This document shows positions 2,777-32,736 of a stretch of 33,732 bases of DNA, piece after piece; within the stretch, counting starts at the first letter, position 1, and each line of letters starts with the position of its first letter. Source of the stretch: Bacteroidota bacterium (GTDB lineage Bacteria; Bacteroidota; Bacteroidia; Flavobacteriales_D; Sanyastnellaceae); NCBI GenBank assembly GCA_016868835.1, contig VGFR01000009.1, positions 1-33,732 of the forward strand. The letters run 5' to 3'. A program made the position numbers and the translations under genes. The notes beneath the pieces were generated by a model, which worked only from the letters and a program-made list of their open reading frames with translations, was not told the origin of the DNA and did not search any database.

Positions 2777-2784
2777 TAAATTCG
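2777..2784 (+). promoter_or_regulatory. -7-like box TAAATTCG
   Basis: The octamer TAAATTCG matches the Bacteroidota -7 consensus TAnnTTTG except for one C. It ends 4 nt before the ATG at 2789, the spacing found at eight other genes in this window. A clear -33 TTG is not visible. It is read as the promoter of the downstream lipoprotein gene, giving a leaderless or nearly leaderless mRNA. Confidence 0.55.
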
Positions 2785-2788
2785 CGAC

Positions 2789-3280
2789 ATGTCTAATGTG
2801 AATTTATTTTTTTCATTTGTTTTAGTATTAGTGTTTTTGGGTTGTAATACACCCCAAGAAAGAGCGAGAAATTATAACAATGAAATTGTATTGGTTCTCA
2901 CTGAGGTAGGTTTGGTTATGCAGCAACTAGATGAATCATTGCTGAATCAAACTGAAATCAATAGCCGATTTGATGGCGCCAAGAAGAAAGTAGATTCCTG
3001 TCAAAAGGTACTTAATGAAATTGGTTTGTATGAGAAGGATACAACGCTTGTGTTTCCTGCAAAGCGTGTCATTGAAGTGTATCAAAAATTGCTTTCTAAA
3101 CAATATAGAGATTTGGTTCAATTTCACACCCTTCCTTCATCAGATATAACTTTTGATTTGGTAGACTCAACGCGTGTTTTGAGAATGGAAATTCAAAATG
3201 AATCGACATTTGTACAACGTGATTTCGAGAACGCCCAGCAATCATTTGCCGATAGATATATTTTAAAACTGGTTGAATAA
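2789..3280 (+). CDS. Hypothetical lipoprotein, 163 aa
   Basis: I do not recognise the family with confidence. The N-terminus has a hydrophobic stretch ending in a lipobox (LVFLGC, Cys about 19), so the mature protein is probably lipid-anchored. The rest is mainly helical: helices around residues 28-55 and 60-80, a short extended part near LVFPAKRVIEVYQKLLSKQYRDL, and a C-terminal helix with many Gln and Phe residues. No catalytic motif is visible. The ATG at 2789 sits exactly 4 nt after a TAAATTCG box and has no recognisable ribosome-binding site. The gene is separated by 33 nt from the DUF2490 gene and by about 80 nt from the next lipoprotein, so it may be its own unit. Confidence 0.75.
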   Translation: MSNVNLFFSFVLVLVFLGCNTPQERARNYNNEIVLVLTEVGLVMQQLDESLLNQTEINSRFDGAKKKVDSCQKVLNEIGLYEKDTTLVFPAKRVIEVYQKLLSKQYRDLVQFHTLPSSDITFDLVDSTRVLRMEIQNESTFVQRDFENAQQSFADRYILKLVE

Positions 3281-3339
3281 ACAACCTATATCTTATATGA
3301 TTATTGAATAAGACCCTCTTTCTCTATTCATAAATCTTT

Positions 3340-3360
3340 GGTCCATAATAAAAATGGACC
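3340..3360 (+). promoter_or_regulatory. Perfect 7-bp inverted repeat directly before a start codon
   Basis: The arms GGTCCAT (3340-3346) and ATGGACC (3354-3360) are perfectly complementary and separated by a 7-nt A-rich spacer. The right arm ends one base before the ATG of the lipoprotein gene at 3362. It also contains its own ATG that would read a three-codon peptide. As RNA it would form a hairpin covering the initiation region. As DNA it could be an operator. Function is inferred only from position and symmetry. Confidence 0.45.
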
Positions 3361-3361
3361 T

Positions 3362-3982
3362 ATGAAAAAATTAATCTTTAGTTTATTGATCTTTCTTGGA
3401 ATTGCTTCATGCAAACAAGAAGACGTAACCCCAAGCGGGCTTACTATTCAAGTTTTGGAATCGGGAACAGACTCCCCTATTCCCAATGCGAAATTATTAT
3501 TTTACAAAACGAATGCAGTTGGTGGCGGTCCTGCGTTTCAACTTGTGGATAGTTCAGTGACCAATCAATTGGGTGTATTTCCTCTGATTGAAATTGGAGA
3601 AGTTGATTGTGTTACTGTCGCTAGTCAAGACGATGCATATTATTTTGATGTAAGTGATATTCTATGTGGTTTGAATGGACGAGTTCAACATTGTTTTCGA
3701 GTGAAGTCACGAGCGCAATTGAGTTTTTCATTAACTGATGAAATGAATGTTCAGACTTCATTGAATCACGTGGATGTGCGAATTGAAAAAGGTTTTCAGA
3801 ATAGATTGATAGAATCAACTCTTTATCCGAATTCTAGCTGCGATTCACTTTTTGTATTCGCAAACGAACCCGTAGAGCTCGAGTTTAAACGAGTGTATGA
3901 TTCGGGAGCAAGCACCTACGAATACCTCACCCTTTCTCCATTGGCCAAGAACGAGGTTCATCACATTTCATTAACCTTTTAA
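3362..3982 (+). CDS. Hypothetical lipoprotein, 206 aa, Ig-like/carboxypeptidase-regulatory-like
   Basis: The N-terminus MKKLIFSLLIFLGIASC is a lipoprotein signal with the modified cysteine at about residue 17. The mature part begins with a segment (TIQVLESGTDSPIPNAKLLFY) that resembles the beta-sandwich repeats found in carboxypeptidase regulatory-like and Ig-like surface domains. The remainder is beta-rich with several cysteines. No specific family is recognised. The ATG at 3362 was chosen over a TTG at 3338, because it starts the signal peptide. The gene ends only 10 nt before the large secreted hydrolase, so the two are probably one operon and may act together at the cell surface. A perfect inverted repeat lies just before the start. 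Confidence 0.75.
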   Translation: MKKLIFSLLIFLGIASCKQEDVTPSGLTIQVLESGTDSPIPNAKLLFYKTNAVGGGPAFQLVDSSVTNQLGVFPLIEIGEVDCVTVASQDDAYYFDVSDILCGLNGRVQHCFRVKSRAQLSFSLTDEMNVQTSLNHVDVRIEKGFQNRLIESTLYPNSSCDSLFVFANEPVELEFKRVYDSGASTYEYLTLSPLAKNEVHHISLTF

Positions 3983-3992
3983 AAATACAGTT

Positions 3993-6900
3993 ATGTATAT
4001 TAGAATAACATTCATTCTTTGTCTTTTAACCTTGATGGGTAGAACACAAACGTCTGTTCCTTTTTCAAGACAGCTGGCCCTCGCAGACTCATTGAACCAC
4101 TATAGTTCCACAGCAAGTCAATCCGAGTCTTTATTAAAATTTTATGATCTATCATGTAGCCCTTCTAACCCTTTAAATAATCAACTGGAGCTACTTCATT
4201 TTTCATATCAAAAGGCAAATACAGAAGACGTTGGCAACTTGTTTTTCATTTCTTCGAATCAGGAAGTGATTACTTATCAAAATGAAATTACGTTTCAAAT
4301 TGAATTGAATAATTTGATTTCAAATACCGAATATTCATTCGGCAATGAAATTTGGCAATCATTGACGAGCCCTGAACTGGTATTTATGCCAGACGTGACA
4401 GATACGCTTATACACTTCTCTATTCGTGGCATTGCTAATTCTGAATTTTGGCAGGTGGGAATTGAAGTTCCTATAACGCGACTTGCTGAAATTTCACCAG
4501 ATGCATCTCCTTGGCCAATGGTAGACGGGGATTATCCGTATGAAATTTCAACATATGCATTTAATCAAATGATTTATGGTCACGCCTATGTCAAGTTAGG
4601 TGCTGATGGAGTTTTTGACAAGCCCTTTTTGTTTGTTGAAGGAATTGATTTTGGCACGGATAGAACTGCAACGCGCAACGGTACTTTTGGTTGGAATGAA
4701 TTGGTTTCAGGGAATGAAAGTGGTACATACAGCATGCTTTCATTAATGCCCAATTTTTTAGACAGTATAAGTGAGAGAGGATATGATTTAGTGCTTTTAG
4801 ATTTTGTAGATGGCGCTGCAGATATAAAAAAGAATGCAGCTTTGTTACAGCATTTGATTCAGTTATGTAATACCTATAAAGAAGGAACAAATGAAAATGT
4901 AATAGCTGGAGCAAGCATGGGTGGTATTGTATCTCGGGTTGCACTTCGTGAAATGGAATTAAACGGCATGTGCCATGAATGCTCGCATTACCTCTGTTTA
5001 GACTCTCCTCATCTAGGTGCAAATATTCCACTTAGTCTACAAGCAACCATTTATTTTTTGTCTGAATTTGTTCCTGAGGCGGAATTATTCGTTTCTGAAA
5101 AATTAGAACGAGACGCCGCTAAACAATTGCTTTGTTATCATTGGGGAAGCTCTAATGTTTTGCAACCAAATTGGTTTCTGGATTTTCAAGCGTATTTATC
5201 GGAATTGGGACTACCACAACACACCCTGAATATGGCCATATCGAACGGTTCGTTGAACGCAACACCACAATATTCAGTTTTAGAAACCCCATTACTAAAT
5301 GAGCACTGCAATGCAACGAATTGGCTATCTGGAGAAGAAATTGTTTTTAAACTTTTTCCTTTACCCGGAAATGCCAATTATGATGAGAGCACTACTTATT
5401 CCAATGTATTGGCAGATTTAAGGTTTACACAAATGAGTTGGAACAATTGGTTAAGCCCGGTAGACATTTATACAAGTAAGCCGTCTGTTTCCATTGAAGC
5501 CAAAAGCCTTGATTATTCAAACGGGGGCTGGTCAAGTTCAATTTATGAATTGGTTAAAGTCTTTAACTCTTCGTCTGATTTCACTGATGCATGTGGTGCA
5601 ATTAATGCAGATCAATACGCCTTTAAGCACTGCTTCGTTCCCCTATCTTCAGCGTTATTGCAGGGGGAGCTCGTTGCACATGAATCAATGAATGTTTCAG
5701 CTAGTCCTTTTGATTATTGTTTAGCCGCAAATGGTATGAATGAGCCTCATTCTCATTTATCGTGGAGTCACATAGACTTTTTATTAGATAAACTATCTGA
5801 AGTAAACGCGTGGAGTATGAGTTCAGCTTTGAATAATGCTGAGGAAGTTTCGCTTGTGGAATCAATGGAGGTACTTAGACCAATGCATGTGCATTCCGGA
5901 AGATTGTTATTTACGAATCCTGCTCAAAATGATATTGGTGATGAAGTACAAGTTCAATTCAAAGCTGGATGCGAGAATGCTGAGTTTAATTTAAGTGGGA
6001 ATATGGAAATGCGAATTGGATTTGAAGAGGGAAATTTATTCGCACATGCAACGGTTGCAGATTCGTGTGTTGTTCGTTTGAGTGAATATCAGCAGACTAC
6101 TATTGAGAAAAACAGTAGTATGGTTTTAGAAAGTGGTGCTTCATTGGTTCTAAATGGAGGCACACTAAAATTGAAGGGGAGCCTGTATTTAAATGAAGGA
6201 TCTGAATTGATTCTTCAGAACGGACAATTGATATTGGATGGAGGGAAAATTGAATTGTTGGGAGGAAAGATTCATATTCTTGACGATTTTGAAATTGAAC
6301 AGTCCAACTCAGGCGGTTATGTGGTTTGCAGAAGTGGTGATCTTATAGATTTTGATTTCGAGCTTGGCTCTTCTTTGCATTGGAATGGTAATTCGGCATT
6401 GGATTCTATGTTAGTGGTAGCGGAGGGCTGTATGTTGAATGATGGTGGTGAGGGAGGATGGATAGAGTTTAATAGTGCACATGTAGTATTGGCTTCGGGT
6501 TCTCATGTGGTTTCCTTTAGGAAAAATAATTTTATACATTCTTGGTTAGAAGGAAGTTCAACGTCGAATTACACTGTGCAGTGGGCCGATCTATCTTTTT
6601 ATCAATCGAGAGTGTTGCAGGTTCATGTGCAAAATGATTATTCGTCGTTTGTATTTCGGAACTCTGTTGCTGAATTGAATGAGTTCAATATAAACTTTGG
6701 AAATTACCGCGTTGAGGCTTCTACGTTTCTGACTTCTTCAATTGTGTCTAAGCATTTAAAATCTCGAAGTCGAATTTTACAATCTGGCTTTTATGATTCG
6801 AATGCGCCAGTTGTGGATGAGAGTTTAACAGAATTGTATGTATACCAATCTAATTTCTCGAATCATACAACAGGTATAAAAAAGAAAGGCGGTCGCTTAC

Positions 6901-8099
6901 GAATGCGTTGCAATCTCATTCAATCAAGCGAAATTGGGGTTGCAGCTGAAAAGGGATGTCTTGTTTATTTGGGTTTAAATGATGCGGCTGGATTCAATAC
7001 CTTTTCAAATTTGGAATATGCGATTCAATTGGAGCATGCACTGGTTCCGTCTTTCTTGAATGGTGAAAATAGATTCGAATCTTGTATCATGTATTTAGGC
7101 GGCTCTGTAACAAATGCCACATGTATGACTCAGTTGCATTTTGGTAGAAATTATTTTGAGAATGATGTTTACAACAGATTCTCAGTAACTAGCGCTACAT
7201 CAACCATTGCTAATGCACCATGTTATTTGGGTTTTACATTGGGTGAAAATATTGCGGGAAGTTGTCCTGTTGGTGTTGGGCAAGTTGCAATAGGTAAATC
7301 GAATCAGTTAAAAGACAAGAATTTGATTGTTACGTTGAATGGTTTATCTCTTGAATTGGACTCTGTTTTTTCGATTGTTTCAGATCTCTATTTCTTTTCT
7401 GATACCGTTTATCAGGGTAAGCAATGCATGCAGCTTTTGAGTGAAGCTTTATTACAAGTTCCCCTTGATTCATTAACAGCCGAGGAGCTGCCTAAGATTC
7501 ACGGAGCTATGCATTTTATGAGTTGGTTATTGGACGAGTTGGTACAACGGAATGAAATTGTTTTCTTGAACAATCAGAGTGATTTTGAGCCAGTGGTTTC
7601 TAAATTTTTCGCCGTATTAAATCACTTTAGTGCGGAGTCATATGATGTGCAATCTTTCCACCACCAGTTCTATTGGGAATTGGAAAAAATAAAAGCATTG
7701 CGAACGTTGGGCCTAACGAATCAAGCGTTGTTTATGCTTTCCAACCTGAATCAGTGCAATCTCGAATCTTTAGAATTAGACATTTTGGAATACTGGTTAT
7801 GTTTAACAAATCAAGAAATTGAACAGAATAGCGTAGATATAAATGAGTCATTAAATAATTCATTTCAATTCATCACAGAGACAGAAGTTGTTTTTGGATC
7901 ACAAGTCATTTCTCCATCAGAAATATTTATATATCCTTGTGTTTATTCAGAGAAAAATAATGGTCTCAAGCTTGAAACGGATGTAACATTCGATTCGAAT
8001 ATATTGGGACAGATGACTCGAAGTGAATCAAATGAAAATGGTTGCTATTTCCGAGTGACAAAAACCGGAGAGGTAAAGAAATACTTACGAATGAGATAG
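3993..8099 (+). CDS. Large secreted alpha/beta-hydrolase with beta-helix region and T9SS-type C-terminus
   Basis: This 1368-residue protein begins with a signal peptide (MYIRITFILCLLTLMGRTQT). Residues about 200-620 form an alpha/beta-hydrolase of the PGAP1/lipase-like type. It has FLFVEGIDFG, a nucleophile elbow GASMGG with Ser308, LCLDSPHLGANIPL (Asp337), and HSHLSWSHIDFLL, which probably supplies the catalytic histidine. Residues about 700-770 contain short repeated glycine-rich strands (LNGGTLKL, LDGGKIELLGGKI). Together with about 770-1100 they look like a right-handed parallel beta-helix. The last 70 residues resemble a degenerate type IX secretion sorting domain (IFIYPC... ILGQM ... 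GCYFRVTKTGEVKKYLRMR). The predicted role is hydrolysis of an ester substrate at the surface; the substrate is unknown. The gene follows a lipoprotein by 10 nt and its 3' end overlaps nhaD by 15 bp in convergent orientation. Confidence 0.8.
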   Translation: MYIRITFILCLLTLMGRTQTSVPFSRQLALADSLNHYSSTASQSESLLKFYDLSCSPSNPLNNQLELLHFSYQKANTEDVGNLFFISSNQEVITYQNEITFQIELNNLISNTEYSFGNEIWQSLTSPELVFMPDVTDTLIHFSIRGIANSEFWQVGIEVPITRLAEISPDASPWPMVDGDYPYEISTYAFNQMIYGHAYVKLGADGVFDKPFLFVEGIDFGTDRTATRNGTFGWNELVSGNESGTYSMLSLMPNFLDSISERGYDLVLLDFVDGAADIKKNAALLQHLIQLCNTYKEGTNENVIAGASMGGIVSRVALREMELNGMCHECSHYLCLDSPHLGANIPLSLQATIYFLSEFVPEAELFVSEKLERDAAKQLLCYHWGSSNVLQPNWFLDFQAYLSELGLPQHTLNMAISNGSLNATPQYSVLETPLLNEHCNATNWLSGEEIVFKLFPLPGNANYDESTTYSNVLADLRFTQMSWNNWLSPVDIYTSKPSVSIEAKSLDYSNGGWSSSIYELVKVFNSSSDFTDACGAINADQYAFKHCFVPLSSALLQGELVAHESMNVSASPFDYCLAANGMNEPHSHLSWSHIDFLLDKLSEVNAWSMSSALNNAEEVSLVESMEVLRPMHVHSGRLLFTNPAQNDIGDEVQVQFKAGCENAEFNLSGNMEMRIGFEEGNLFAHATVADSCVVRLSEYQQTTIEKNSSMVLESGASLVLNGGTLKLKGSLYLNEGSELILQNGQLILDGGKIELLGGKIHILDDFEIEQSNSGGYVVCRSGDLIDFDFELGSSLHWNGNSALDSMLVVAEGCMLNDGGEGGWIEFNSAHVVLASGSHVVSFRKNNFIHSWLEGSSTSNYTVQWADLSFYQSRVLQVHVQNDYSSFVFRNSVAELNEFNINFGNYRVEASTFLTSSIVSKHLKSRSRILQSGFYDSNAPVVDESLTELYVYQSNFSNHTTGIKKKGGRLRMRCNLIQSSEIGVAAEKGCLVYLGLNDAAGFNTFSNLEYAIQLEHALVPSFLNGENRFESCIMYLGGSVTNATCMTQLHFGRNYFENDVYNRFSVTSATSTIANAPCYLGFTLGENIAGSCPVGVGQVAIGKSNQLKDKNLIVTLNGLSLELDSVFSIVSDLYFFSDTVYQGKQCMQLLSEALLQVPLDSLTAEELPKIHGAMHFMSWLLDELVQRNEIVFLNNQSDFEPVVSKFFAVLNHFSAESYDVQSFHHQFYWELEKIKALRTLGLTNQALFMLSNLNQCNLESLELDILEYWLCLTNQEIEQNSVDINESLNNSFQFITETEVVFGSQVISPSEIFIYPCVYSEKNNGLKLETDVTFDSNILGQMTRSESNENGCYFRVTKTGEVKKYLRMR

Positions 8100-9374
8100 A
8101 ATGAATACGGCACAACCGGCCAAGAAACCTATTACAGCGAGCCATGATAGGTTTTTGAGATACCACGAAAACGGAATTTTTTCTATACCCATCACGGCAA
8201 CACCGGCGGCGGATCCTATGATTAGCATGCTGCCGCCGGTTCCTGCTGTATAGGCTAAGAATTGCCAGAAGGAACCGTCTTGAATAAACTGACTTAACCA
8301 AACATCAGTGGATCCATTCGCTACAATTGGATACATGCTTTTGCTTGCGGCGACCAAAGGAACATTATCTATTATCGCAGATAAGAATCCGATGGCTACA
8401 TTGATCCCATATCCATTTTGAATGGTGTCTTTGAGCCAGATGGATAGTTCTTGTAAGAATCCAGCTTGTTGTAAAGCACCAACAGAAAGTAAAATGCCTA
8501 GGAAGAAAAGTACAGAGGGTAGGTCAATTTTTCTGAGTGCTGAGAGTGCACTGAATTGAGCCCGTTCTTCACCAATTTTTCTACCATGAACCAAATCAAT
8601 AATGAACCATGTAATACCAACGCTTAGCATCATGCCCATAAATGGAGGCAGATGTGTAATGGTTTTAAAAACAGGAACAAACAAAAGCCCACCCACTCCA
8701 ATTAGAAAAACAGACCACTGCGTTTTTTTAGAGAGTTGAAAATTAGAATAGTGTGTTTCTTCCGTAGGTTGAATACTTCCTTTTTGGGTGAAGGATAAAA
8801 TAATTAATGGAAGTAGAAGGCTAATGAAACTTGGTAAAAATAATGATTGTATCGTATGACCACTAGTAATTTGCCCACCAATCCAAAGCATGGTGGTTGT
8901 TACATCGCCTATTGGACTCCATGCTCCACCGGCATTTGCAGCAATGATGACTACCCCTCCAAAAATCCATCTGGTTTTTTGATCAGCAATGATTTTCCGT
9001 AGCAAGCTCACCATTACAATGGCCGTGGTTAAATTGTCAAGTGCGGCTGATAAGAAAAAAGCAAGAAATGCCAATATCCAAAGCAACTTCACTTTACTCG
9101 AAGTTGAAATTCGATTGGTGATTATTTCAAAGCCGTGATGAGCATCAATGATTTCCACAATGGTCATTGCCCCCATTAGAAAAAGTAAAATGCTTGAAAT
9201 CTCTACAACGTGCTCAGTAAGTGAGTGTGCAACAATTTCTGTTGGCTGTTGAAAGGTGAGAGCGGTCCAACACAACACCCCGCCAATAAGCGCAGAGGCC
9301 GCTTTGTCAATCTTGATGTTGTGTTCAAGAATAATGAATGCGTAAGAGACTATGAAAATTGAGAGTATAAGCAT
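8085..9374 (-). CDS. nhaD: Na+/H+ antiporter NhaD
   Basis: This 429-residue polytopic membrane protein matches the NhaD family of the ion transporter superfamily, which exports Na+ in exchange for H+. Recognisable segments include EISSILLFLMGAMTIVEIIDAHHGFEIIT, AALDNLTTAIVMVSLLRK, and AANAGGAWSPIGDVTTTMLWIGG. A second repeat has IDNVPLVAASKSMY and GTGGSMLIIGSAAGVAVMG. These two inverted halves with Asn/Asp-containing discontinuous helices are the family signature. It is the last gene of a four-gene operon, 5 nt after exbD. The 3' end overlaps the large hydrolase gene by 15 bp on the opposite strand. Start at 9374 (ATG). Confidence 0.92.
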   Translation of the reverse strand: MLILSIFIVSYAFIILEHNIKIDKAASALIGGVLCWTALTFQQPTEIVAHSLTEHVVEISSILLFLMGAMTIVEIIDAHHGFEIITNRISTSSKVKLLWILAFLAFFLSAALDNLTTAIVMVSLLRKIIADQKTRWIFGGVVIIAANAGGAWSPIGDVTTTMLWIGGQITSGHTIQSLFLPSFISLLLPLIILSFTQKGSIQPTEETHYSNFQLSKKTQWSVFLIGVGGLLFVPVFKTITHLPPFMGMMLSVGITWFIIDLVHGRKIGEERAQFSALSALRKIDLPSVLFFLGILLSVGALQQAGFLQELSIWLKDTIQNGYGINVAIGFLSAIIDNVPLVAASKSMYPIVANGSTDVWLSQFIQDGSFWQFLAYTAGTGGSMLIIGSAAGVAVMGIEKIPFSWYLKNLSWLAVIGFLAGCAVFILSHS

Positions 9375-9379
9375 TATTA

Positions 9380-12467: not shown

Positions 12468-14881
12468 AACTCGAAAATAATTCCAAAAGCAGGGATTAAA
12501 CTGCCGTTGATATTTTCTAAAAAGATAGGAACCGCATTACTACCGTTGGTTTGTATGGGCTGACCATCAGTTGTTGAATATCCCGTATTGGCCGCATTTC
12601 GCTCAAAGGTGTAAATATCAGGGCTGTAACTTTTCGCGTTGGTAACGTTTTGAATATCCAAGAAAACGTCGAGTGTAGATTTTTTAAAATTAATTTTCTT
12701 GTCAATTCGAATATCCAATTGATTGAAAAACGGGAGTCGTTGCGAGTTGATTTGATTATAGTCGAGTACTCCGGTTCCTAAGGTTAAATAACTTAATTGT
12801 GATGCCACTAAATCATAGGGCGTGTAAGGGGCGCCACCGGCGAATCTGTATTTAACGCCCAATTCATACCCTCTTTTGAATTTTTTACCGAAGATTAATG
12901 AAAGAAGATGTCTATTGTCCCAGGCCGATGGAGCATAGACGCCATCATCACCAGTGAATTCACTTTTAAAGAATGTGTATGAAGCAGTAAGGTAATAAGA
13001 GGTTGTAAATTTCTTTTGGAAGAACAATTCAAATCCGTAAGCACGCCCTGTTCCTTTATTCTCTACGTCTTCGTTTCCAATAGCGCCGTAGGCGCTTCCT
13101 TCGTTGGCAAGTGAGATGCCATTTCGAATTGAAACAGGGTAGTTGTTGTACGATTTATAAAATCCTTCGGCGGTAACACGCACTGAGTTGGAGGGTAAAT
13201 ATTCTGTTCCTAGTGCAAGGTGATCACACAAGATGTAAGGACTATTTTTATTGGTGGAAATACCATCTTCTTTGTAACCTAAAATGGTATAAGACGGCAG
13301 CTTAGCGTATCTACCAGTTGCAACATTTAGATTCCATTTTGAATTGATAGCGAAAGACGCACTTGCTCTCGGACTCATGGCTTGTAGCGGATCTGTGCCA
13401 TTCGTTGTGAATGAATTCATATCCGAACGCAGTCCGGCGGTTAATGAAAGTCTATCATTCCATAAAAGTCGATTCATTGATACAAATGCACCGCCTTTGA
13501 TAAAATCAATTGATGTGTTGAATGCAATGGACACTGCTGGTATAGTGGCTCCGGTGTTGGGGTCTTGGTATGAAGGGGCTATTCTTGCAAAGAATGCGTT
13601 ATTGTATTTGACATATTGAAATGAAGCGCCATAAACGAATTTCCAATTTCCATAGAATTGATTGATTTCATATCGAAGTTTATTTTCAATTTCTTGGCTT
13701 TCACTTTTAAACGTTCTTTTTTCTTCGTTTCCTTCTTGCGCATCTTCAAAGCGGTCCAATCGATTGTTGAACATATTTCGACTTAAACTCAAATTGGAGA
13801 ATCCATTTTCTAACGTTTTTTTCCAGGTGAAACCCATGGTGTAATTCCATTGGTTAATGTTCGGGTTGGAACGAATGATATATTCTTTCGTGGGGTCTGA
13901 GTTTTTTGGAACAGCGAAATAAAACTCATCGATTGCACCAAGACCTATAGCTGTAATGGTATTTTTCTCATTGATTTTGGTGTTGACTTTGTATTGAAAA
14001 TCCCAATAGTTTGGTCGAATAGGTAGGTCAATCAATTGAAAAAAGTATTGGAGATAGCTTCGTCTTGCACTTGCAAGAAAAGTAGTTTTTTTACCAATTG
14101 GACCCTCCAATGTTCCTGCAAGTTCAGTACTTGAAAGCCTCCAGTTTCCCTGCACACGAGTGGCGTTTCCATTGCGTTGTTTGAATTGCAGCACGGAAGA
14201 CAAGGCATTGTCATACTTTGCATTGAAGCTACTTGAATTCAAAGTCGCTGTTTCAATAAAGCTTACGTTAATGATACCTTGTGGCCCCCCAGAGGAACCC
14301 TGCGTGCTGAAGTGATTGATTTGAGGAACCTCAATGCCGTCAAGGTAATATACGTTTTCACTCGGAGCACCACCTCGAATGATAAGATCATTTCGCTCTC
14401 CTGCTCCCGACAGTCCGCCCACTCCAGGAAGCGCTTGAATGACTTTGGAAATATCGAAATTTCCTCCTGGGTTACTTTTAATTTCTTCAGCAGACAAGCT
14501 TTGCACTGACAGAGGAGATTCCAATTCTTTTCCGTAATTGAAAGATTGAATGTTGATTACTCCCTGTTCATTTGTTGTTTCAGTAAGATCAATAGTGAAT
14601 GTATTTGCATTTCCGTTGGTAATAACAACATTGAAAAGGGTTACAGAGACATATCCGATCATCTCTGTTTTGATATTGTAGGTTCCAGGAGTAATTTTTG
14701 TAATTAGAAACTCTCCTTTTTCATTCGCTATACATCCGAATTGCGAGTTCTCTAAACGAACGGTAGCTCCAAAAATGGGTTGTTGATTTTTTTTGTCGAT
14801 TACAATTCCAGAAACACTTCCGTTTTGTGAAAAGGCTTGCACACCGCACAGCAGCATGAGAAATAAGACTATTTTATTCAT
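12464..14881 (-). CDS. TonB-dependent outer membrane receptor with carboxypeptidase-regulatory-like N-domain
   Basis: This 805-residue outer membrane receptor has a signal peptide (MNKIVLFLMLLCGVQAFS) and a CarboxypepD_reg-like domain at about 22-110 (GSVSGIVIDKKNQQPIFGATV). A plug domain follows at about 125-230 (VQSLSAEEIKSNPGGNFDISKVIQALPGV, IIRGGAPSENVYYLDGIEVP), then a beta-barrel that ends in a terminal phenylalanine. It should import an unknown ligand with energy from TonB-ExbBD. No SusD-like partner is adjacent, so it is not a classical Sus pair. It lies 57 nt downstream of the branched-chain dehydrogenase gene on the same strand, and may be co-transcribed or use its own weak box (TAGTTTAA, 14886-14893). 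It converges with the DUF4349 gene with a 4-bp overlap. Confidence 0.9.
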   Translation of the reverse strand: MNKIVLFLMLLCGVQAFSQNGSVSGIVIDKKNQQPIFGATVRLENSQFGCIANEKGEFLITKITPGTYNIKTEMIGYVSVTLFNVVITNGNANTFTIDLTETTNEQGVINIQSFNYGKELESPLSVQSLSAEEIKSNPGGNFDISKVIQALPGVGGLSGAGERNDLIIRGGAPSENVYYLDGIEVPQINHFSTQGSSGGPQGIINVSFIETATLNSSSFNAKYDNALSSVLQFKQRNGNATRVQGNWRLSSTELAGTLEGPIGKKTTFLASARRSYLQYFFQLIDLPIRPNYWDFQYKVNTKINEKNTITAIGLGAIDEFYFAVPKNSDPTKEYIIRSNPNINQWNYTMGFTWKKTLENGFSNLSLSRNMFNNRLDRFEDAQEGNEEKRTFKSESQEIENKLRYEINQFYGNWKFVYGASFQYVKYNNAFFARIAPSYQDPNTGATIPAVSIAFNTSIDFIKGGAFVSMNRLLWNDRLSLTAGLRSDMNSFTTNGTDPLQAMSPRASASFAINSKWNLNVATGRYAKLPSYTILGYKEDGISTNKNSPYILCDHLALGTEYLPSNSVRVTAEGFYKSYNNYPVSIRNGISLANEGSAYGAIGNEDVENKGTGRAYGFELFFQKKFTTSYYLTASYTFFKSEFTGDDGVYAPSAWDNRHLLSLIFGKKFKRGYELGVKYRFAGGAPYTPYDLVASQLSYLTLGTGVLDYNQINSQRLPFFNQLDIRIDKKINFKKSTLDVFLDIQNVTNAKSYSPDIYTFERNAANTGYSTTDGQPIQTNGSNAVPIFLENINGSLIPAFGIIFEF

Positions 14882-17327: not shown

Positions 17328-17355
17328 CAAAGATACGAAATGAAAGCACTCACAA
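17328..17355 (-). promoter_or_regulatory. Promoter of the fused E1 gene
   Basis: The minus strand shows TATCTTTG (17328-17335), a perfect TAnnTTTG -7 box, and a TTG (17353-17355) 17 nt upstream as the -33 element. The box ends 4 nt before the ATG at 17323, so the mRNA should begin at or almost at the start codon. It is the best-formed promoter of this type in the window. Confidence 0.7.
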
Positions 17356-17407: not shown

Positions 17408-17415
17408 TTCTTTTG
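17408..17415 (+). promoter_or_regulatory. -7-like box TTCTTTTG
   Basis: TTCTTTTG matches seven of eight positions of TAnnTTTG and ends 4 nt before the ATG at 17420. It faces the E1 promoter divergently, with 72 nt between the two boxes. No good -33 element is seen. Confidence 0.45.
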
Positions 17416-18304: not shown

Positions 18305-18312
18305 TACATTTG
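18305..18312 (+). promoter_or_regulatory. -7 box TACATTTG
   Basis: TACATTTG is a perfect TAnnTTTG box and ends 4 nt before the GTG at 18317. It supports the GTG as the true start of the prenyl synthase and predicts a leaderless mRNA. A -33 TTG at the normal distance is not evident. Confidence 0.6.
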
Positions 18313-22543: not shown

Positions 22544-23550
22544 TAGCCTAGTGTTCGAATTAATTCTTCAACTTTGTTTACCATTTTCAAAGAGCCAATA
22601 AATAGCGGTGATCTTTGATGTAAGTCCGTTGGTTTAATTTCCATGATTCTTCCATTACCATGACTGGCTTTTCCACCTGCCTGTTCAACAATGAAGGCAA
22701 GTGGATTGCATTCATATTGGATACGCAATTTTCCTTCAGGAGATTTTGAACTGCCGGGATACATGTAGATTCCGCCTTTAATGAGATTGCGATGAAAATC
22801 TGCTACTAAGGAACCAATATATCTGGCACTGTAAGGACGATTTGTTTTTTTGTCGGACGCTTTACACCATGAGACATAGGCTTGAACGCCCGGGCTGCAT
22901 GCATTGATATGCCCTTCGTTCACACTGAAAATTGAACCATCCTCGGGAATTCTCATGTTCGGATGAGAAAGAAAGAATTCACCAATACTCGGTTGTAAAG
23001 TAAATCCATTTACACCGCGCCCTGTAGTATAAACCAACATGGTACTGCTTCCGTATATGATGTATCCAGCAGCCACTTGCTCATCACCCGTTTGAAGAAA
23101 GTCATTGACTGTGGCCATGTCTCCAATGCTTGATTTGCGTCTGAAGATGGAAAAGATGGTACCAATACTTACGTTCACGTCAATGTTGGATGAACCATCT
23201 AGTGGATCGAACAAAATGACATACTTTGCTTTTTTGCAATGCTCATGATCAAAGGCGAAATACTTTTCATTTTCTTCTGATCCTGCACCAGCAACTTGAC
23301 CGCCCCATTGCATGGCGTTGAGAAGGGTGTCGTCTGCAAAAACATCAAGTTTCATTTGGGTTTCGCCTTGGACATTCGTTTTCCCTGCGGCGCCTAAAAT
23401 GTCTTGAAGGCCGGCTTTATTCACTTTGTGATTGATGATTTTACCAGCAATTCCAATATCTGATAGTAATCTACTTAAATCTCCTGAAGCGTAAGGGAAG
23501 TCTGATTGACGTTCCATGATGAATTCGCTGAGTGTTACAAGTGCGGCCAT
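22543..23550 (-). CDS. fbp: Fructose-1,6-bisphosphatase class I
   Basis: This 335-residue protein is a class I fructose-1,6-bisphosphatase, the gluconeogenic enzyme that releases phosphate from fructose 1,6-bisphosphate. The metal and substrate motif [24 protein letters not shown] is complete. Also visible are [12 protein letters not shown] and the C-terminal signature [27 protein letters not shown]. The start ATG at 23550 lies 4 nt after a TAAATTCG box located at the end of rsmA, so the gene may be transcribed from its own promoter as well as from rsmA. It is followed by the TM2 gene with a 1-nt overlap. Confidence 0.95.
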
Positions 23551-23554
23551 GATG

Positions 23555-23562
23555 CGAATTTA
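23555..23562 (-). promoter_or_regulatory. -7-like box TAAATTCG for fbp, inside the end of rsmA
   Basis: The minus-strand octamer TAAATTCG begins with the TAA stop codon of rsmA itself and ends 4 nt before the fbp ATG. This is the same box and spacing as at 2789, 29743 and 31873. A -33 element is not clear. Confidence 0.5.
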
Positions 23563-24345: not shown

Positions 24346-24349
24346 ACCA

Positions 24350-24357
24350 CAAATCAA
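24350..24357 (-). promoter_or_regulatory. -7-like box TTGATTTG for rsmA
   Basis: TTGATTTG matches seven of eight positions of TAnnTTTG and ends 4 nt before the GTG at 24345. It is divergent to the CvpA box at 24450-24457, with 92 nt between them. Confidence 0.45.
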
Positions 24358-24449: not shown

Positions 24450-24457
24450 TAGTTTCG
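24450..24457 (+). promoter_or_regulatory. -7-like box TAGTTTCG
   Basis: TAGTTTCG differs from TAnnTTTG by one C and ends 4 nt before the ATG at 24462. The same TTCG variant occurs at four other genes of this window. No clear -33 TTG is present at the usual distance. Confidence 0.5.
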
Positions 24458-24461
24458 GGGT

Positions 24462-27035: not shown

Positions 27036-29743
27036 TATTCTTCTTCTTCATATTGACCTTTTTCTTGCAACCACTTGGGTAATTGATTTCCTTTACCAGC
27101 GCGCTCTACACGTTTCTTCTCTTCATCGGTCATTTTAGATTCGTTTTTTAGCAGTGGAAGTACATTGGTCTGTATTTTTTCTATTTTATCTCCGGCTCGG
27201 CTTTGAACGTTGTTTGTTTCACCCTCCTCTTTTCCTGAAATTTTGCTTTCTCGTTTCGGAATATTGGGAAGATTCAGTCGATTGCGAAATTTTTCTTTCA
27301 GTTTCGCCTTCTTTTCATTGCGCTGTTCTATGCGATCTTCGCGAAGGGCATCTTTGTCTAAACCAAATTCTAAATTCTCCCAAGGGCCTTTCATGAAAAT
27401 ATAAATTTGTCTTCCGCTCGTTCCATCATTACTTAAAAGCACATCTTTCAAATTAAACCCAAATTTATAATCGAGATAGTTTGAAAAAGTATGTGAGCCT
27501 TCAAGAGTAATGTCTAAGGCATTTGATTCAATATTCATGAGAGGAATATCTATGCGTTCATTTTCAATGTGAATAGTATTTTCAAGCGTTTCGAACCGCA
27601 CATGTTCTAGTTTTTCAGAAAATTCATTTTCATTTACGAATGGCGCTATCCATTTGTTTGATCGAATGTAGTCTGTGATATATTGTAAACTTTGAACTTG
27701 AATCAACTCTCCGTTTTCAATTTGAACATCAATATCTGAAACAATGCTGGAAGGAACAGGATTGAATGAGGCATCAAAGACCCCTTGAAATTCAATTGTT
27801 GCATGGGTTTTTCCTTTAATATTTGCATCAGTCAGTGAGTTTTGTTCGAAATTATTGAACAGACGAAATACGTTGTCAATTGCAATATCTTCAAGTCTTG
27901 CTGTTGCTTCTATCTCGGTGTATCCATTTTCTTTAGGTGAAAGCAGAACATCTGTTTGCATTTCTCCCCCTGCAATATCCATACGCAGAGGTGAAAGACT
28001 GAATGTGCCTTGGTAGGCTTCAATGATTCCTTGAACTCTTTTTGCGTTGAAAGTTTGGTATGAAAAGGCATCTACATTGGTTTGTAATACAAGTCGAATG
28101 TTATTTGGCATTCCAATTCCTGACGCATCCTCTTGAGAATCTATCCAGTTTTCTAATTTGAATTCAGGTATGGAAACACGGGTATTCACCAGTAAGTCTT
28201 CATTTGAAGTTGTTAAATAAGGAATAAGATTTTGGAGTTCTCCGGTAATGGAAATTTGCGTGTTATTCAGATTGAAATTGAAAGATTCTACTTTGGCTTT
28301 TTGCTCCAAAAGTGAGAGAGTTCCGTTGATGTTTTTAAGGTGTTGCGATGTTCCATACCATTGAAATTCGGCATTTGAAATTTGTGCCTCACCAGCCATT
28401 TCTACACCAGACCAAATGAACGAACTATCAGCAGAACTAAATTCAACTTTCCCATCTACCCTTGCTTTCAAATTTAATCCGCCAATGCATGTGGTAAGGG
28501 AATCCCAAGCAAGGAAATTTTTCAAATCATTGAGATCAGAATTGGCCTGAAGATTCAGATGAACCTCTGGGTTTTGATTGGGATATATAGATCCATGAAT
28601 GTTTATATTTCCATTACCTAGCTGCGCTTGAAGTGTTTTTATTTCAATACTATCTGTTCCGCTGTTGAGGGTGTATATTCCAGAGAACTGAATATTATCG
28701 AGTTGTACACCGGTATTAATTTCCTTCAGTGACCCGTCTTTAATATCAATGTGAGTAAGAACATTTATTTTCTCAAGAGGGCCTTGAATAGATAAATCGA
28801 AAACGGCTGTTCCCTCAGGCTCATAGGGTGAAAATTGTGCGTTGATTTCTTCAGGAAGAAGAGATATAATTTCATTAAACGTGAGTTCTGTTTTTTCAAC
28901 CTTACACATTACTTTGGGATGCATTCCAAATTCGAAGGCCCCTTCGAAAAGCAAGGGTATATTTTCGATGGAAACACTGGTTTTATTTAATTCAATTCGA
29001 GATTTTTCGGTGTCGAGATGAATGATAGAATTGAAAATAAAATCTTTGTTTTTAAGAAATGACTTGTTGTTTAGAGAGAGTATTTTCGATCTCAGGCTAC
29101 CTTCAATTTCGACGTCAAAAACAGATGATGTAAATGCGCCACTCGCCTCAATGTCGGCAATGTTTAAGTGAATGTGCTGGTTGCTCGAATCATTTTTATA
29201 GATGAATTGAATTTCTTCGGTCAGAATATTTTCTATTGCAATTTCATATTTTTCGCTAGAAGCATCTTGCGTAGAATCGGGTATCCACACATTCCAATTT
29301 TCTTCACCCTGTTTATTTACTTTTAAGTTGCAGAAACCTTTTTCTATTCCTAATTCATCGAATTGATAATTACCAGAGAAGAGGTCGATGACATCGAAGG
29401 AAAGAAACATTTTTTCAGCCTTTATGAGTGTGTCGTGCTGATCCGAGTTTTCTTCAATGTATATGTTATTGAATTGAATTGAGGCGGAGGGAAAATTGGT
29501 CCATAACGTTAATTCGGCGCTTTCAACTGAAGTTTTGGTTTTTATATTTTTTGAGAAATAGGCTAAAGCATAGTTAACGATTTCATTTTCGAAAACGGTT
29601 AACAATAGAAGAATGGTTAGAAAGAAAAGTATGAATAAAGTTGAAATAGAAATGATTATTCTCTTGAGCCACTTGGGAAGTTTCTTCTTGCTGGGATTGG
29701 CCGGCAAGGTGAATTCCGTATTATTTTCAAGATCATTTCCCAT
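27035..29743 (-). CDS. AsmA-like envelope protein
   Basis: This 902-residue protein belongs to the AsmA family, large proteins anchored in the inner membrane and reaching into the periplasm; relatives take part in lipid transport to the outer membrane. A single N-terminal transmembrane helix lies at about 27-52 (IIISISTLFILFFLTILLLLTVF), after a short positive cytoplasmic segment. The remainder is long alternating beta-strand sequence, such as VESAELTLWTNFPSASIQFNNIYIEE near the N-terminus and the ENGELIQVQSLQYITDYI segment near 680. The last 100 residues are highly charged (KKAKLKEKFRNRL). The ATG lies 4 nt after a TAAATTCG box. It is the first gene of an operon with the rRNA methyltransferase. 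Confidence 0.87.
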   Translation of the reverse strand: MGNDLENNTEFTLPANPSKKKLPKWLKRIIISISTLFILFFLTILLLLTVFENEIVNYALAYFSKNIKTKTSVESAELTLWTNFPSASIQFNNIYIEENSDQHDTLIKAEKMFLSFDVIDLFSGNYQFDELGIEKGFCNLKVNKQGEENWNVWIPDSTQDASSEKYEIAIENILTEEIQFIYKNDSSNQHIHLNIADIEASGAFTSSVFDVEIEGSLRSKILSLNNKSFLKNKDFIFNSIIHLDTEKSRIELNKTSVSIENIPLLFEGAFEFGMHPKVMCKVEKTELTFNEIISLLPEEINAQFSPYEPEGTAVFDLSIQGPLEKINVLTHIDIKDGSLKEINTGVQLDNIQFSGIYTLNSGTDSIEIKTLQAQLGNGNINIHGSIYPNQNPEVHLNLQANSDLNDLKNFLAWDSLTTCIGGLNLKARVDGKVEFSSADSSFIWSGVEMAGEAQISNAEFQWYGTSQHLKNINGTLSLLEQKAKVESFNFNLNNTQISITGELQNLIPYLTTSNEDLLVNTRVSIPEFKLENWIDSQEDASGIGMPNNIRLVLQTNVDAFSYQTFNAKRVQGIIEAYQGTFSLSPLRMDIAGGEMQTDVLLSPKENGYTEIEATARLEDIAIDNVFRLFNNFEQNSLTDANIKGKTHATIEFQGVFDASFNPVPSSIVSDIDVQIENGELIQVQSLQYITDYIRSNKWIAPFVNENEFSEKLEHVRFETLENTIHIENERIDIPLMNIESNALDITLEGSHTFSNYLDYKFGFNLKDVLLSNDGTSGRQIYIFMKGPWENLEFGLDKDALREDRIEQRNEKKAKLKEKFRNRLNLPNIPKRESKISGKEEGETNNVQSRAGDKIEKIQTNVLPLLKNESKMTDEEKKRVERAGKGNQLPKWLQEKGQYEEEE

Positions 29744-29747
29744 GTAT

Positions 29748-29755
29748 CGAATTTA
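29748..29755 (-). promoter_or_regulatory. -7-like box TAAATTCG for the AsmA-like gene
   Basis: The minus-strand octamer TAAATTCG ends 4 nt before the ATG at 29743. It is the same box and spacing as at 2789, 23550 and 31873. No -33 TTG is apparent. Confidence 0.5.
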
Positions 29756-29769
29756 AAGACGGCCTGATG

Positions 29770-29777
29770 TACATTTG
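29770..29777 (+). promoter_or_regulatory. -7 box TACATTTG for the superoxide dismutase gene
   Basis: TACATTTG is a perfect TAnnTTTG box on the plus strand. Transcription would start near 29782 and give a leader of roughly 54 nt, unlike the leaderless genes. The leader contains the palindrome GTTTTTTGAAAAAAC (29783-29797) and a short TTGTTAAACAA symmetry close to the start codon. Confidence 0.45.
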
Positions 29778-29835
29778 ACTGGGTTTTTTGAAAAAACTGA
29801 CAACCTTTTGTTTGAATATTTGTTAAACAAGACAT

Positions 29836-30549
29836 ATGAAAAGAATATTGTATTTCGTTGCCTTCATTTTTGTTAATACCACCTTGGGTCAACAAATAGG
29901 CGAGCACAAGCCAGGATTTGTTTTAGGTGAATTGCCTTATGCACTAGACGCCTTAGAGCCGGCCATTGATAAAGAAACAATGAACATTCATTACAACAAA
30001 CATCACTTGGCATATTTGAATAATTTGAATGCAGCCCTCCTTGAAGATCTATATGTTAAAGAGTATGGTGATTTACCTTTGGAAGGCATATTGTTGCGAG
30101 TAGGAGAAGACCATGGTGTTATCCGAAACAACGCTGGGGGGCATTACAATCACCAGTTATTTTGGAATTGTTTAACACCAATCAAAGAAAAGCGTGTGCC
30201 CTCGGGGCTGTTACTTCAAGCAATTCAGCGCGATTTCGGTTCTTTTGATAAATTAAAAGAGCTACTTCTTTTAGAATCGAAAAATAGATTCGGAAGCGGT
30301 TGGGTCTGGCTTTGTAAAGATTTGAATGGCGTTTTGTTTGTCATGAGTACGCCCAACCAAGACAACCCATTAATGGCTAGAATTAGCAATCGGGTTGGAA
30401 TTCCAATTTTAGGTATTGACGTTTGGGAACATGCATATTATCTAAAATATCAGAACAAACGTGTTGATTATGTCAAGTCGGTTCTAGAGATTGTGAATTG
30501 GAGCTATGTAAGCGAGCAATATGAGAAGGAATTTGAAATTGGCAAGTAA
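29836..30549 (+). CDS. Exported Mn/Fe superoxide dismutase
   Basis: This 237-residue protein converts superoxide to oxygen and hydrogen peroxide. All four metal ligands are present: His52 (NIHYNKHH), His106 (GGHYNHQLFW), and Asp195 and His199 (GIDVWEHAYY). The segment STPNQDNPLM resembles the Mn-type signature, so Mn or cambialistic use is likely. The N-terminus MKRILYFVAFIFVNTTLGQQ looks like a signal peptide, which most bacterial members lack, so the enzyme is probably periplasmic or surface-exposed. The stop is directly followed by the DUF2480 gene. A TACATTTG box lies about 58 nt upstream of the start. Confidence 0.92.
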   Translation: MKRILYFVAFIFVNTTLGQQIGEHKPGFVLGELPYALDALEPAIDKETMNIHYNKHHLAYLNNLNAALLEDLYVKEYGDLPLEGILLRVGEDHGVIRNNAGGHYNHQLFWNCLTPIKEKRVPSGLLLQAIQRDFGSFDKLKELLLLESKNRFGSGWVWLCKDLNGVLFVMSTPNQDNPLMARISNRVGIPILGIDVWEHAYYLKYQNKRVDYVKSVLEIVNWSYVSEQYEKEFEIGK

Positions 30550-31047
30550 ATGATTGAAAATAAAATCACAGCTAATTCAAAACTGATAACTCTGAATTTA
30601 TCCGAGCTTATAAGGGAATCTGATTTTCTGGAATTGGATATTGCGCCCTGGTTGTGGCAGGGTTTAGTTTTGAAAGAAACCGAATACAGGGAGGCTTTAA
30701 ATGGAGTGAATTGGAGCGATTTTAATGCCAAACACGTTTTGATTCGATGCAGTGTAGACGCCATTATTCCTACTTGGGCATATATGTTGCCGAGTTCGAA
30801 ATTATCCGGAATTGCAAAATCTGTGACCTATACCACACAAGATAAGGTAGATGAAAACAAGGCGCTAATTGTTATTCACGATTTAGAATTATCGCATTTT
30901 GAAAATAAAAACGTGGTTGTGAAAGGGTGTTCTGATTTGAATTTAACACCGCATGTTTATGTGCAGCTCCAGTTGAAATTGCAGTCGGTAGTGAATCGAA
31001 TTATGTTCGGTGAACCGTGTTCTACAGTTCCTATTTTTAAAAGGTAG
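30550..31047 (+). CDS. DUF2480 family protein
   Basis: This 165-residue protein is a DUF2480 member, a family I know from Bacteroidota and whose function is not established. Diagnostic segments are LDIAPWLWQGLVLKETEYREAL, CSVDAIIPTWAYMLPSS, KGCSDLNLTPHVYVQLQLKL and the C-terminal FGEPCSTVPIFK. Several conserved cysteines could bind metal or an Fe-S cluster; this is an inference. From memory, the family is often encoded next to suf genes; here it follows the superoxide dismutase with no gap, so it is co-transcribed with it. It ends 1 nt before the convergent barrel gene. Confidence 0.85.
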   Translation: MIENKITANSKLITLNLSELIRESDFLELDIAPWLWQGLVLKETEYREALNGVNWSDFNAKHVLIRCSVDAIIPTWAYMLPSSKLSGIAKSVTYTTQDKVDENKALIVIHDLELSHFENKNVVVKGCSDLNLTPHVYVQLQLKLQSVVNRIMFGEPCSTVPIFKR

Positions 31048-31048
31048 A

Positions 31049-31798
31049 TTAGAATCGCAAAGCCATTCCCAATTGAAATAAATCTCTTTTTGTAGAGGTG
31101 TTTCCTATGTTGTAGCTGATGGCGTTATTTTGATCTAAATGAACACTTTCTGGAATGACATACTCTGACTTTCCACCATCAATTTTTTCATAACGAAGAT
31201 CAAAGAATAAATTATGAGCCTTTCCCATTTTTATTCGCACACCGATGCCATAGGCATAAAGAAATGAACCACCTTGTTGAATGAGTTTCGCATCTTCAAC
31301 AGATGAAAATCCTCCACTGTTTTGAATGGTAATGTCTGTTTTGGTTTGAAAATTCTCAAAGCCCCCAAGTAAATCGAAATACGGTTGAATGGCACCGTTA
31401 AAAGGTCTAAATCTGAACTGTGCTAAGTAACGGTAATTATTATTTCGGGCTCGGTATGTTCCGGGATTTCGAACGGTATCGCCCGGATTTACAATAGGAG
31501 CCACCACTTCAATATCTTGATCAAAAGTACCCATGTTGTTCCAAGCGAAGGCCACACCGTATTCAAACGGAGATGCTTTTTTAATTGGAATAGAGATGTT
31601 AACAGAGATACCCAAGGGATTTCCTGAATAGGTTGCCGCGAAATCTTCTAGAGGCCTAACGGCCTGAGCTCCGATGGAGATTGAAGTGGTTCTGGGTAGT
31701 TTCTTTTTAATTTCCCTTTTTTTTATAGGTTCATTGTTTTGGGCAATCGAACTGTAAAAAGCCAAAAGAAGCATGAGCGTTGCGAAAGAAGACTTCAT
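31049..31798 (-). CDS. Outer membrane beta-barrel protein
   Basis: This 249-residue protein has a signal peptide (MKSSFATLMLLLAFYSSIA) and a repeated beta-strand pattern typical of eight-stranded outer membrane barrels. Examples are ISIGAQAVRPLEDFAA, YLAQFRFRPFNGAIQPYFDLLGGFE, FLYAYGIGVRIKMGKAHNLFFDLRYEKI and the final LFQLGMALRF with a terminal phenylalanine. The ATG at 31798 was chosen because it begins the signal peptide; an upstream start at 31954 would add 52 unlikely residues. A perfect TAACTTTG box (31853-31860) would give a leader of about 50 nt. The function is unknown. Confidence 0.85.
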   Translation of the reverse strand: MKSSFATLMLLLAFYSSIAQNNEPIKKREIKKKLPRTTSISIGAQAVRPLEDFAATYSGNPLGISVNISIPIKKASPFEYGVAFAWNNMGTFDQDIEVVAPIVNPGDTVRNPGTYRARNNNYRYLAQFRFRPFNGAIQPYFDLLGGFENFQTKTDITIQNSGGFSSVEDAKLIQQGGSFLYAYGIGVRIKMGKAHNLFFDLRYEKIDGGKSEYVIPESVHLDQNNAISYNIGNTSTKRDLFQLGMALRF

Positions 31799-31852
31799 AA
31801 CTTGTATTTTTTTTGTGAAGACAATTCGTGTGCCGAAATGAAATATCATAAG

Positions 31853-31860
31853 CAAAGTTA
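31853..31860 (-). promoter_or_regulatory. -7 box TAACTTTG for the barrel gene
   Basis: The minus-strand TAACTTTG is a perfect TAnnTTTG box. It abuts the plus-strand box for rmlD at 31861-31868 with no base between. The start codon is 54 nt downstream, so this mRNA would have a leader. Confidence 0.5.
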
Positions 31861-31868
31861 TAAATTCG
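31861..31868 (+). promoter_or_regulatory. -7-like box TAAATTCG for rmlD
   Basis: The plus-strand octamer TAAATTCG ends 4 nt before the GTG at 31873. It supports the GTG as the true rmlD start, rather than the TTG codons at 31870 or 31879. It is back to back with the minus-strand box of the barrel gene. Confidence 0.5.
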
Positions 31869-31872
31869 CTTG

Positions 31873-32736
31873 GTGAGATTGAAAAAGATTTACATATTAG
31901 GAGAATCAGGACAGCTGGCATCTTGCTTTGCTTCGGTGAAAAGAGAATTTCCAAATTTGGATTTGCAATTTTTTGGACGTGATCAAATAGATTTCGAGAG
32001 ACCCCTTGACCCGCAATTCAATTGGAACTTGCCCCCCGATTGGATTATCAATACAGCAGCTTATACTGCTGTAGATCTCGCAGAAACAGAGCATGAATTG
32101 AATTGGCGAGTGAACGCAGAAGCCTTATTGGAACTTTCCAATTGGTGTGAAAAACACAATACACCTCTTATTCATTTTTCTACAGATTATGTTTTTGATG
32201 GTGAAAATCAAGTTCCGGGAGGATATACAGAAGTTAGTGCCGTAAATCCGCAGTGTGAATATGGGCGTGCAAAACTTCAAGGAGAAATGCATGCGTCTCG
32301 GTATGCCAAAGCATTGATATTTAGAATTGCCTGGCTGTATTCACAATTTGGAAAGAATTTTTACTCTACCATTTCAACCAAAATAAAAGCCGGAGAAAAT
32401 CTTTGCGTAGTAAACGATCAGTTGGGTTGTCCAACAAGTGGAATGGCTCTGGCGTATGACATTTTAGATTTTATTAGGCAGACCGAAGTAGACGATGTTG
32501 AATTTGGTTTGTATCATTATAGCCACGAGGGTAAAATAAGTTGGTATGACTTTGCGGTGGCCATTCAAGAGGAATTGAAATGTGAAGTTGAGATTGAATC
32601 AATTTCTTCCGATCAATTGAAAATGGCAGCGAAGCGACCTAAATTTTCAGCCCTTAATTCGAATTTAGCAGAACAAATTTTTCAATTCCCGAATCGTGAA
32701 TGGCGCAGGGAATTGCAAGATATAATTAGAGAATAA
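31873..32736 (+). CDS. rmlD: dTDP-4-dehydrorhamnose reductase (RmlD-like)
   Basis: This 287-residue short-chain reductase matches RmlD, which makes dTDP-rhamnose from dTDP-4-dehydrorhamnose with NAD(P)H for surface polysaccharides. Visible motifs are the N-terminal nucleotide site YILGESGQLA, the HFSTDYVFDG segment with the catalytic Thr104, and YGRAKLQGE with Tyr130 and Lys134. The rmlA, rmlB and rmlC genes are not adjacent, so a related NDP-sugar reductase is possible. The start is the GTG at 31873, located 4 nt after a TAAATTCG box. The next gene follows after 2 nt, so the two form an operon. Confidence 0.85.
   Translation: MRLKKIYILGESGQLASCFASVKREFPNLDLQFFGRDQIDFERPLDPQFNWNLPPDWIINTAAYTAVDLAETEHELNWRVNAEALLELSNWCEKHNTPLIHFSTDYVFDGENQVPGGYTEVSAVNPQCEYGRAKLQGEMHASRYAKALIFRIAWLYSQFGKNFYSTISTKIKAGENLCVVNDQLGCPTSGMALAYDILDFIRQTEVDDVEFGLYHYSHEGKISWYDFAVAIQEELKCEVEIESISSDQLKMAAKRPKFSALNSNLAEQIFQFPNREWRRELQDIIRE

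Follow-up and report, generated by a model that had tools for sequence, protein, structure and literature searches.

Main-promoter boxes at a fixed distance from start codons predict leaderless mRNAs in a Bacteroidota family

In Flavobacterium johnsoniae, 4 or 5 nucleotides (nt) separate the -7 box of the main promoter from the transcription start site (TSS; PMC6847099), and in F. psychrophilum the box occupies -12 to -5 (PMC9723704); these papers, like the others cited below, are drawn on through excerpts. Bacteroidota lack Shine-Dalgarno (SD) sequences (PMC6847099, PMC9723704), and in the species with mapped transcripts leaderless mRNA was dismissed as the reason because of its rarity: 5.5% of messages are leaderless among 890 genes of F. 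psychrophilum (PMC9723704), about 3.7% have a 5' untranslated region shorter than 10 nt in Bacteroides thetaiotaomicron, and leaders exceed 10 nt at 87% of 241 probable promoters of F. johnsoniae (PMC6847099). Bacteroidetes have also been said to be reported with many leaderless mRNAs; in four of their species C signals were seen directly before the start codon, together with upstream biases that were linked to leaderless mRNA or to ribosomal protein S1 (PMC5397173). In a survey based on promoter boxes, only 1 of 37 Bacteroidetes/Chlorobi genomes had leaderless genes (2.4%), and its authors considered it improbable that large shares had been missed (PMC3160421). Here, a box resembling the Bacteroidota -7 element is analysed in contig VGFR01000009.1 (33,732 nt; the whole of this stretch is called the window), which belongs to a draft genome of 2.07 Mb in 216 contigs. 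At nine genes of the window the box ends 4 nt before the start codon.

Based on the position of the boxes and the published spacing, these very probably serve as -7 elements in the main promoter of Bacteroidota and are positioned such that the mRNA would start on the start codon and be translated as a leaderless message. RNA polymerase would start on the first base of the start codon, because the spacing published for F. johnsoniae and F. psychrophilum puts +1 on that base when the spacer, the number of nt between the end of the box and the start codon, is 4. The mRNA would then begin with 5'-AUG or GUG, a C at -1 may prevent initiation one base too soon, and ribosomes would accept the bare 5' AUG. 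A sequence-only reading of the window had predicted such mRNA starts, and the prediction is supported by a genome-wide peak at 4 nt together with the published distance from -7 box to TSS.

The peak was assessed with a strict box, TAnnTTYG, and with the relaxed form under which the boxes had first been listed, T[A/T]nnTT[T/C]G. Genes were called by codon use in the window and 40 further stretches, a sample of 795 kb and 634 genes that covers 38% of the genome. The strict box precedes 44 of 1413 candidate ATGs at spacer 4 and 13 at spacer 5, and the spacer-4 count stands over a background mean of 2.8 per spacer (Poisson P = 1.9e-36). Because the start must be chosen independently of the box, the 366 of 634 genes with a single in-frame ATG within 90 nt of the 5' end of their longest frame were considered separately. 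Here the boxes at spacers 0, 1, 2, 3, 4 and 5 number 0, 0, 0, 0, 26 and 7, with a background of 0.33, and a second, broad group of boxes lies around 15–24 nt. In the window's genome, most single substitutions at the fixed positions of the box abolish the peak; CAnnTTYG, TAnnCTYG and TAnnTTYA retain a weak one. The window itself is denser in boxes than the remaining sample (strict boxes at 7 of 31 genes vs 42 of 603) and is thus a favourable stretch of a genome-wide pattern. A stretch picked for its density might owe the pattern to chance or base composition, but this explanation is already refuted by the spacer controls and its probability is practically negligible: no peak appears at the spacers on either side, with substitutions in the box or with the pattern reversed. 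The sequence-only reading had likewise held the constant spacing to be unlikely by chance.

Whole-genome spacer counts extend the pattern to the window's family (f1). In 13 genomes of f1, spacers 3, 4 and 5 hold 563, 1869 and 947 boxes in sum, vs 604, 624 and 549 in seven genomes taken one each from seven other families, and spacer 4 is at least 1.5 times both spacers 3 and 5 in 13 of 13 f1 genomes vs 0 of 7 others. The genome-wide scan that had been set as a test of the constant spacing therefore gives a sharp peak at 4 nt and not a flat distribution. Family sums of N4-ATG ratios were taken over 238 of 355 genomes, with 93 of 210 for family f10 and all other families complete. Over the reversed control, TTTG-N4-ATG is enriched 3.6-fold in f1 (88 genomes), 2.0-fold in f10, 2.2-fold in f12 (3 genomes), 1.4-fold in f3 (30 genomes) and 1.1-fold in f9 (6 genomes). 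In a phylum scan of 148 genomes the spacer-4 register recurs in some further families, such as f32, and is missing from many; f1 is not alone in having it. The genome G010 (genus g3, 55% G+C; loci L066-L085) carries several spacer-4 forms, with 6 TAnnTTGG, 9 GAnnTTYG and 15 TAnnTTYG.

Within the window, the relaxed box lies at spacer 4 in 9 of 31 genes as called here, and the other 39 spacers of the range 0–39 total 19 genes, with a maximum of 2 and about 0.5 genes per spacer. All nine listed boxes are present at exactly 4 nt 5' of their start codons (Table 1). Seven of them fit TAnnTTYG; the boxes before 17420 and 24345 have no A in the TA pair and are weak, and for this TTnn variant the sample shows no enrichment at spacer 4 (6 vs a background mean of 3.2, P = 0.10). 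The start at 14881, proposed as a tenth and weak match, was dropped, since its sequence (TAGTTTAA) lacks the G and contains no box. The box had also been seen before both ATG and GTG starts, and this holds in the sample, where the strict spacer-4 boxes precede 44 ATG, 5 GTG and 1 TTG; two of the five GTG starts, 18317 and 31873, lie in the window. Scans of the window against Rfam at gathering thresholds and for tRNAs gave no matches.

Table 1. Boxes of the window, each separated by four nucleotides from a start codon
Element	Sequence	Position	Strand	Start codon	Downstream gene	Remark
-7 box	TAAATTCG	2777..2784	+	ATG 2789	short protein without Pfam match	strict; C at -1
-7 box	TATCTTTG	17328..17335	-	ATG 17323	2-oxoacid dehydrogenase E1 with transketolase domains	
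weak box	TTCTTTTG	17408..17415	+	ATG 17420	protein without Pfam match	
-7 box	TACATTTG	18305..18312	+	GTG 18317	polyprenyl synthetase	start 27 nt past upstream co-directional gene
-7 box	TAAATTCG	23555..23562	-	ATG 23550	fructose-1,6-bisphosphatase (fbp)	
weak box	TTGATTTG	24350..24357	-	GTG 24345	KsgA-type rRNA adenine dimethylase	
-7 box	TAGTTTCG	24450..24457	+	ATG 24462	Colicin V production / CvpA family	
-7 box	TAAATTCG	29748..29755	-	ATG 29743	AsmA-like protein	DUF748 and AsmA matches, both below curated cut-offs
-7 box	TAAATTCG	31861..31868	+	GTG 31873	RmlD-type reductase	G at -1

The register was followed in orthologues of the boxed genes. A search with the window's fbp gene gave 20 related loci, of which 13 are titled as metagenome-assembled genomes of Flavobacteriales bacterium, 1 as uncultured Bacteroidetes, 2 as gammaproteobacteria and 4 as Chryseobacterium gleum. 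The last four (L047, L048, L051 and L058) group with this lineage at 77-86% identity and are probably mislabelled. At several of the 20 loci the upstream DNA is identical to that of genomes from the window's genus, which places these metagenome-assembled genomes in the same genus. The fbp box reads TAAATTCG in the window and TAAATTAG in seven relatives from the window's genus (g1), in both cases at 4 nt. Among 13 further loci outside the genus (54-80% identity, the gammaproteobacteria being excluded), 8 carry TACATTTG, TATTTTTG or TACCTTTG at 4 nt, one has a box at 5 nt, and four have no box at 4 nt of the start examined. The register thus stays in fbp orthologues while the box and its flanking sequence vary. 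The CvpA-family gene has TAGnTTCG-N4-GTG in all eight g1 relatives aligned, and ksgA has TTGCTTTG-N4-GTG in eight g1 relatives and no box in eleven more distant genomes. These CvpA-family and ksgA boxes predict leaderless mRNAs with a 5' GUG in the genus. The E1 gene is more variable, with the same box 6 nt before the ATG in seven g1 relatives, and 4 nt before it in G011; G012 has a box 4 nt ahead of another in-frame start, seven codons 5' of that ATG. No orthologue start aligned with 17420 or 18317 among the loci compared. Wherever the start is covered in the genus, the N4-GTG arrangement is seen both for CvpA-family genes, with a strict box, and for ksgA, with TTGCTTTG (loci L127-L133, L135, L046-L050, L052 and L065).

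These comparisons bear on where the polymerase starts. The distance to the TSS varies in any promoter, and its position here is predicted from other species; initiation could accordingly fall more than 5 nt past the box, inside the coding sequence, with the true start codon further downstream. Such a displacement is highly improbable. The single-ATG genes show the peak, the orthologues of fbp, the CvpA-family gene and ksgA have these N-termini in common, and spacers closer than 4 are nearly absent, a limit that is expected if the first base must stay.

Placement of +1 on the start codon would also be reflected in the bases around it. As +1 is an A by the choice of ATG genes, only the base at -1 serves as a test. 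In six genomes pooled, C occupies -1 in 37 of 52 spacer-4 genes vs 30% of 705 unboxed genes (P = 6.5e-9), and the corresponding figure for boxes at spacers 9-44 is 54 of 164; the window's genome alone gives 19 of 26 vs 27% of 240. A pyrimidine (C or T) is found at -1 in 45 of the 52, as expected before a purine +1. Directly 3' of the box, a pyrimidine follows 67% of leadered and 63% of leaderless boxes, vs 32% of box copies inside genes.

Several observations weigh against a leaderless start at this position. The gene starts come from a simple caller of our own and may have GTG or TTG alternatives, and the base at -1 of the nine window boxes is C in five cases, T in three and G in one. The excess of C at -1 is absent at spacer 5 (5 of 13 in the pooled genomes). 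Leadered promoters were examined for a C-A initiator that would independently prove the TSS position, and none was found: at 4-5 nt past leadered boxes a C-A pair does not clearly stand out (26% C at N4), and the A at N5 (45%) lies inside a generally A-rich stretch. The TSS position consequently rests on other species, and, given also the lack of a C excess at spacer 5, the exact +1 remains a prediction. A profile of 49 sequences from the sample shows no clear -33 element (TTTG or TTG); a similarly weak -33 element has been reported in F. johnsoniae (PMC6847099). Gene context adds two further points. Boxed genes are not clearly rarer in tight co-directional packing (15 of 45 vs 231 of 531 unboxed, P = 0.21), so a promoter-only logic, with strong depletion of boxes inside operons, found no significant backing. 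In the sample, few spacer-4 boxes precede loosely spaced co-directional genes (5 of 133), which is not predicted by a simple rule that promoters precede first genes.

Among the tightly packed co-directional genes of the sample, spacer 4 gives the sole peak (15 of 259), and the remaining spacers as far as 59 have 0-3 matches each. It is here that the box could be taken for a translation signal, read in the mRNA at a fixed place 5' of the start, and not for a promoter. This possibility is very unlikely. The box is also enriched at leadered spacers, where 90 of 178 matches at 6-30 nt precede divergent genes, although these make up 198 of 630 genes; its spacer-4 frequency in front of divergent genes (25 of 198) is roughly double that in the tightly packed genes; and it fits the sigma-A box found at the TSSs of two flavobacteria (PMC6847099, PMC9723704). 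Under the preferred reading, as a -7 element, the boxes in tight packing may be compact internal promoters, or else they would be the best argument for an additional role of the box. In 4 of these 15 genes, a gap of 9 nt separates the two genes and the upstream TAA stop supplies the first three bases of the box. The sites of this overlap are 23550-23562 in the window, before fbp, and loci L023, L030 and L039.

The third T of the box is replaced by C in 20 of the 44 spacer-4 ATG boxes of the sample. The sequence-only reading had suggested that this TTCG form could mark a different sigma factor or a local sequence preference. The second proposal proves too narrow, since TTCG-N4-ATG is at least 1.5-fold over control in 70 of 88 f1 genomes and, by summed counts, in 11 of 19 f1 genera; summed over the family the ratio is 2.49 (88 genomes), vs 0.59-1.58 in eleven other families. 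TTCG is thus a real -7 variant that is largely confined to f1. The same confinement is what would favour a separate sigma factor, but this is unlikely, and the proposal is unsupported by what is known of the boxes and of sigma-A. TTCG and TTTG boxes share the same spacer peak, TTCG boxes also occur at leadered spacers, and fbp orthologues carry TTCG, TTAG or TTTG boxes interchangeably at one position. The sequences of sigma-A (RpoD; loci L166-L195), extracted by length of the open reading frame, are identical over the 82 residues of region 2 in 19 full-length f1 sequences, with or without TTCG enrichment; genera g13 and g14 share this region and show no TTCG enrichment. A substitution in region 2 was accordingly rejected as the cause of the TTCG form, and the cause lies elsewhere. 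In the f12 sequence G353, one residue of region 2 is different. Two or more strong RpoD-type matches (>200 bits) are present in 8 of 9 genomes outside f1, and among the 20 f1 genomes with a sigma-A match a second strong one was seen only in G333. The family, which seems to retain a single sigma-A type, has fewer and not more strong sigma-A paralogues in this comparison, which covers sigma-A only. Sigma-A was found in the g1 genomes G001 and G004 and not in the window's draft genome. TTCG would then be a tolerated form of the main-promoter box in f1, for which a separate sigma factor is not needed.

The frequency of leaderless starts was estimated as the share of spacers 4-5 among spacers 4-44, counting box promoters above background. 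The estimates are 28% for the window's genome, 43% for G305, 28% for G198 (f10), 9% for G014 and 13% for G015. For G010 the value is 87%, which is very rough (10 genes at spacers 4-5 among 100), and 57% in the divergent subset. In f1, an uncultured freshwater family, roughly one in four genes whose main promoter can be recognised seems to begin its mRNA exactly at the start codon, and leaderless genes seem to be more common than in the few Bacteroidota with mapped transcripts.

Loss of the anti-SD sequence or of ribosomal protein bS21 was considered as a cause of the shift and was not seen. The only 16S match among 13 f1 genomes searched, in G009, has a 3' end with the anti-SD CCTCC, and the bS21 gene is present in 28 of 30 genomes, the drafts G000 and G004 being those in which it was not found. 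With both retained, no tie is seen between the register and their loss. The family is therefore one in which leaderless mRNA should be common despite an anti-SD (in one member) and bS21 (in most members searched), and it offers a natural comparison for the choice of start by ribosomes that do not use SD sequences. For genomes of f1 recovered from metagenomes, the box and its spacer provide a rule for calling starts. A broader scenario can be put forward tentatively, as possible rather than probable: across f1 the main promoter may have come to sit at the start codon. Leaderless initiation would then be a major mode, in g3 perhaps the main one; C at -1 would fix +1, starts would be of both ATG and GTG type, the box would be relaxed to TTYG, and promoters would fit between packed genes, where the upstream TAA can supply the beginning of the box.

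The open-licence text in PMC, as far as it was searched, describes no Bacteroidota lineage with a high share of TAnnTTTG leaderless genes, and no TTCG form of the box, fixed register or lineage pattern of such a register was found in it. The messages predicted here are of a known kind, and that literature describes them neither in this lineage nor at this frequency. The closest system is the sigma-ABfr promoter of Bacteroides fragilis, F. johnsoniae and F. psychrophilum (TAnnTTTG), which has the same box and the same inferred distance to +1; in F. johnsoniae the third T is nearly invariant (PMC6847099), whereas here it is often C. The start biases without SD sequences in four Bacteroidetes species (PMC5397173) share the C before the start codon with f1, but the excerpts of that study describe them without a promoter box, a fixed spacer or a contrast between lineages. 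In the TA-led leaderless genes of Actinobacteria and Deinococcus-Thermus, as in f1, a box about 10-12 nt before the start marks leaderless genes; it is of the Pribnow type TANNNT (PMC3160421), unlike the boxes here, and a survey built on it could miss the TAnnTTTG class. Compared with the leaderless mRNAs of Bacteroidota with mapped transcripts, those predicted in f1 would be messages of the same kind, with a sharp, fixed register and a higher estimated share, although estimates from sequence do not compare strictly with data from RNA.

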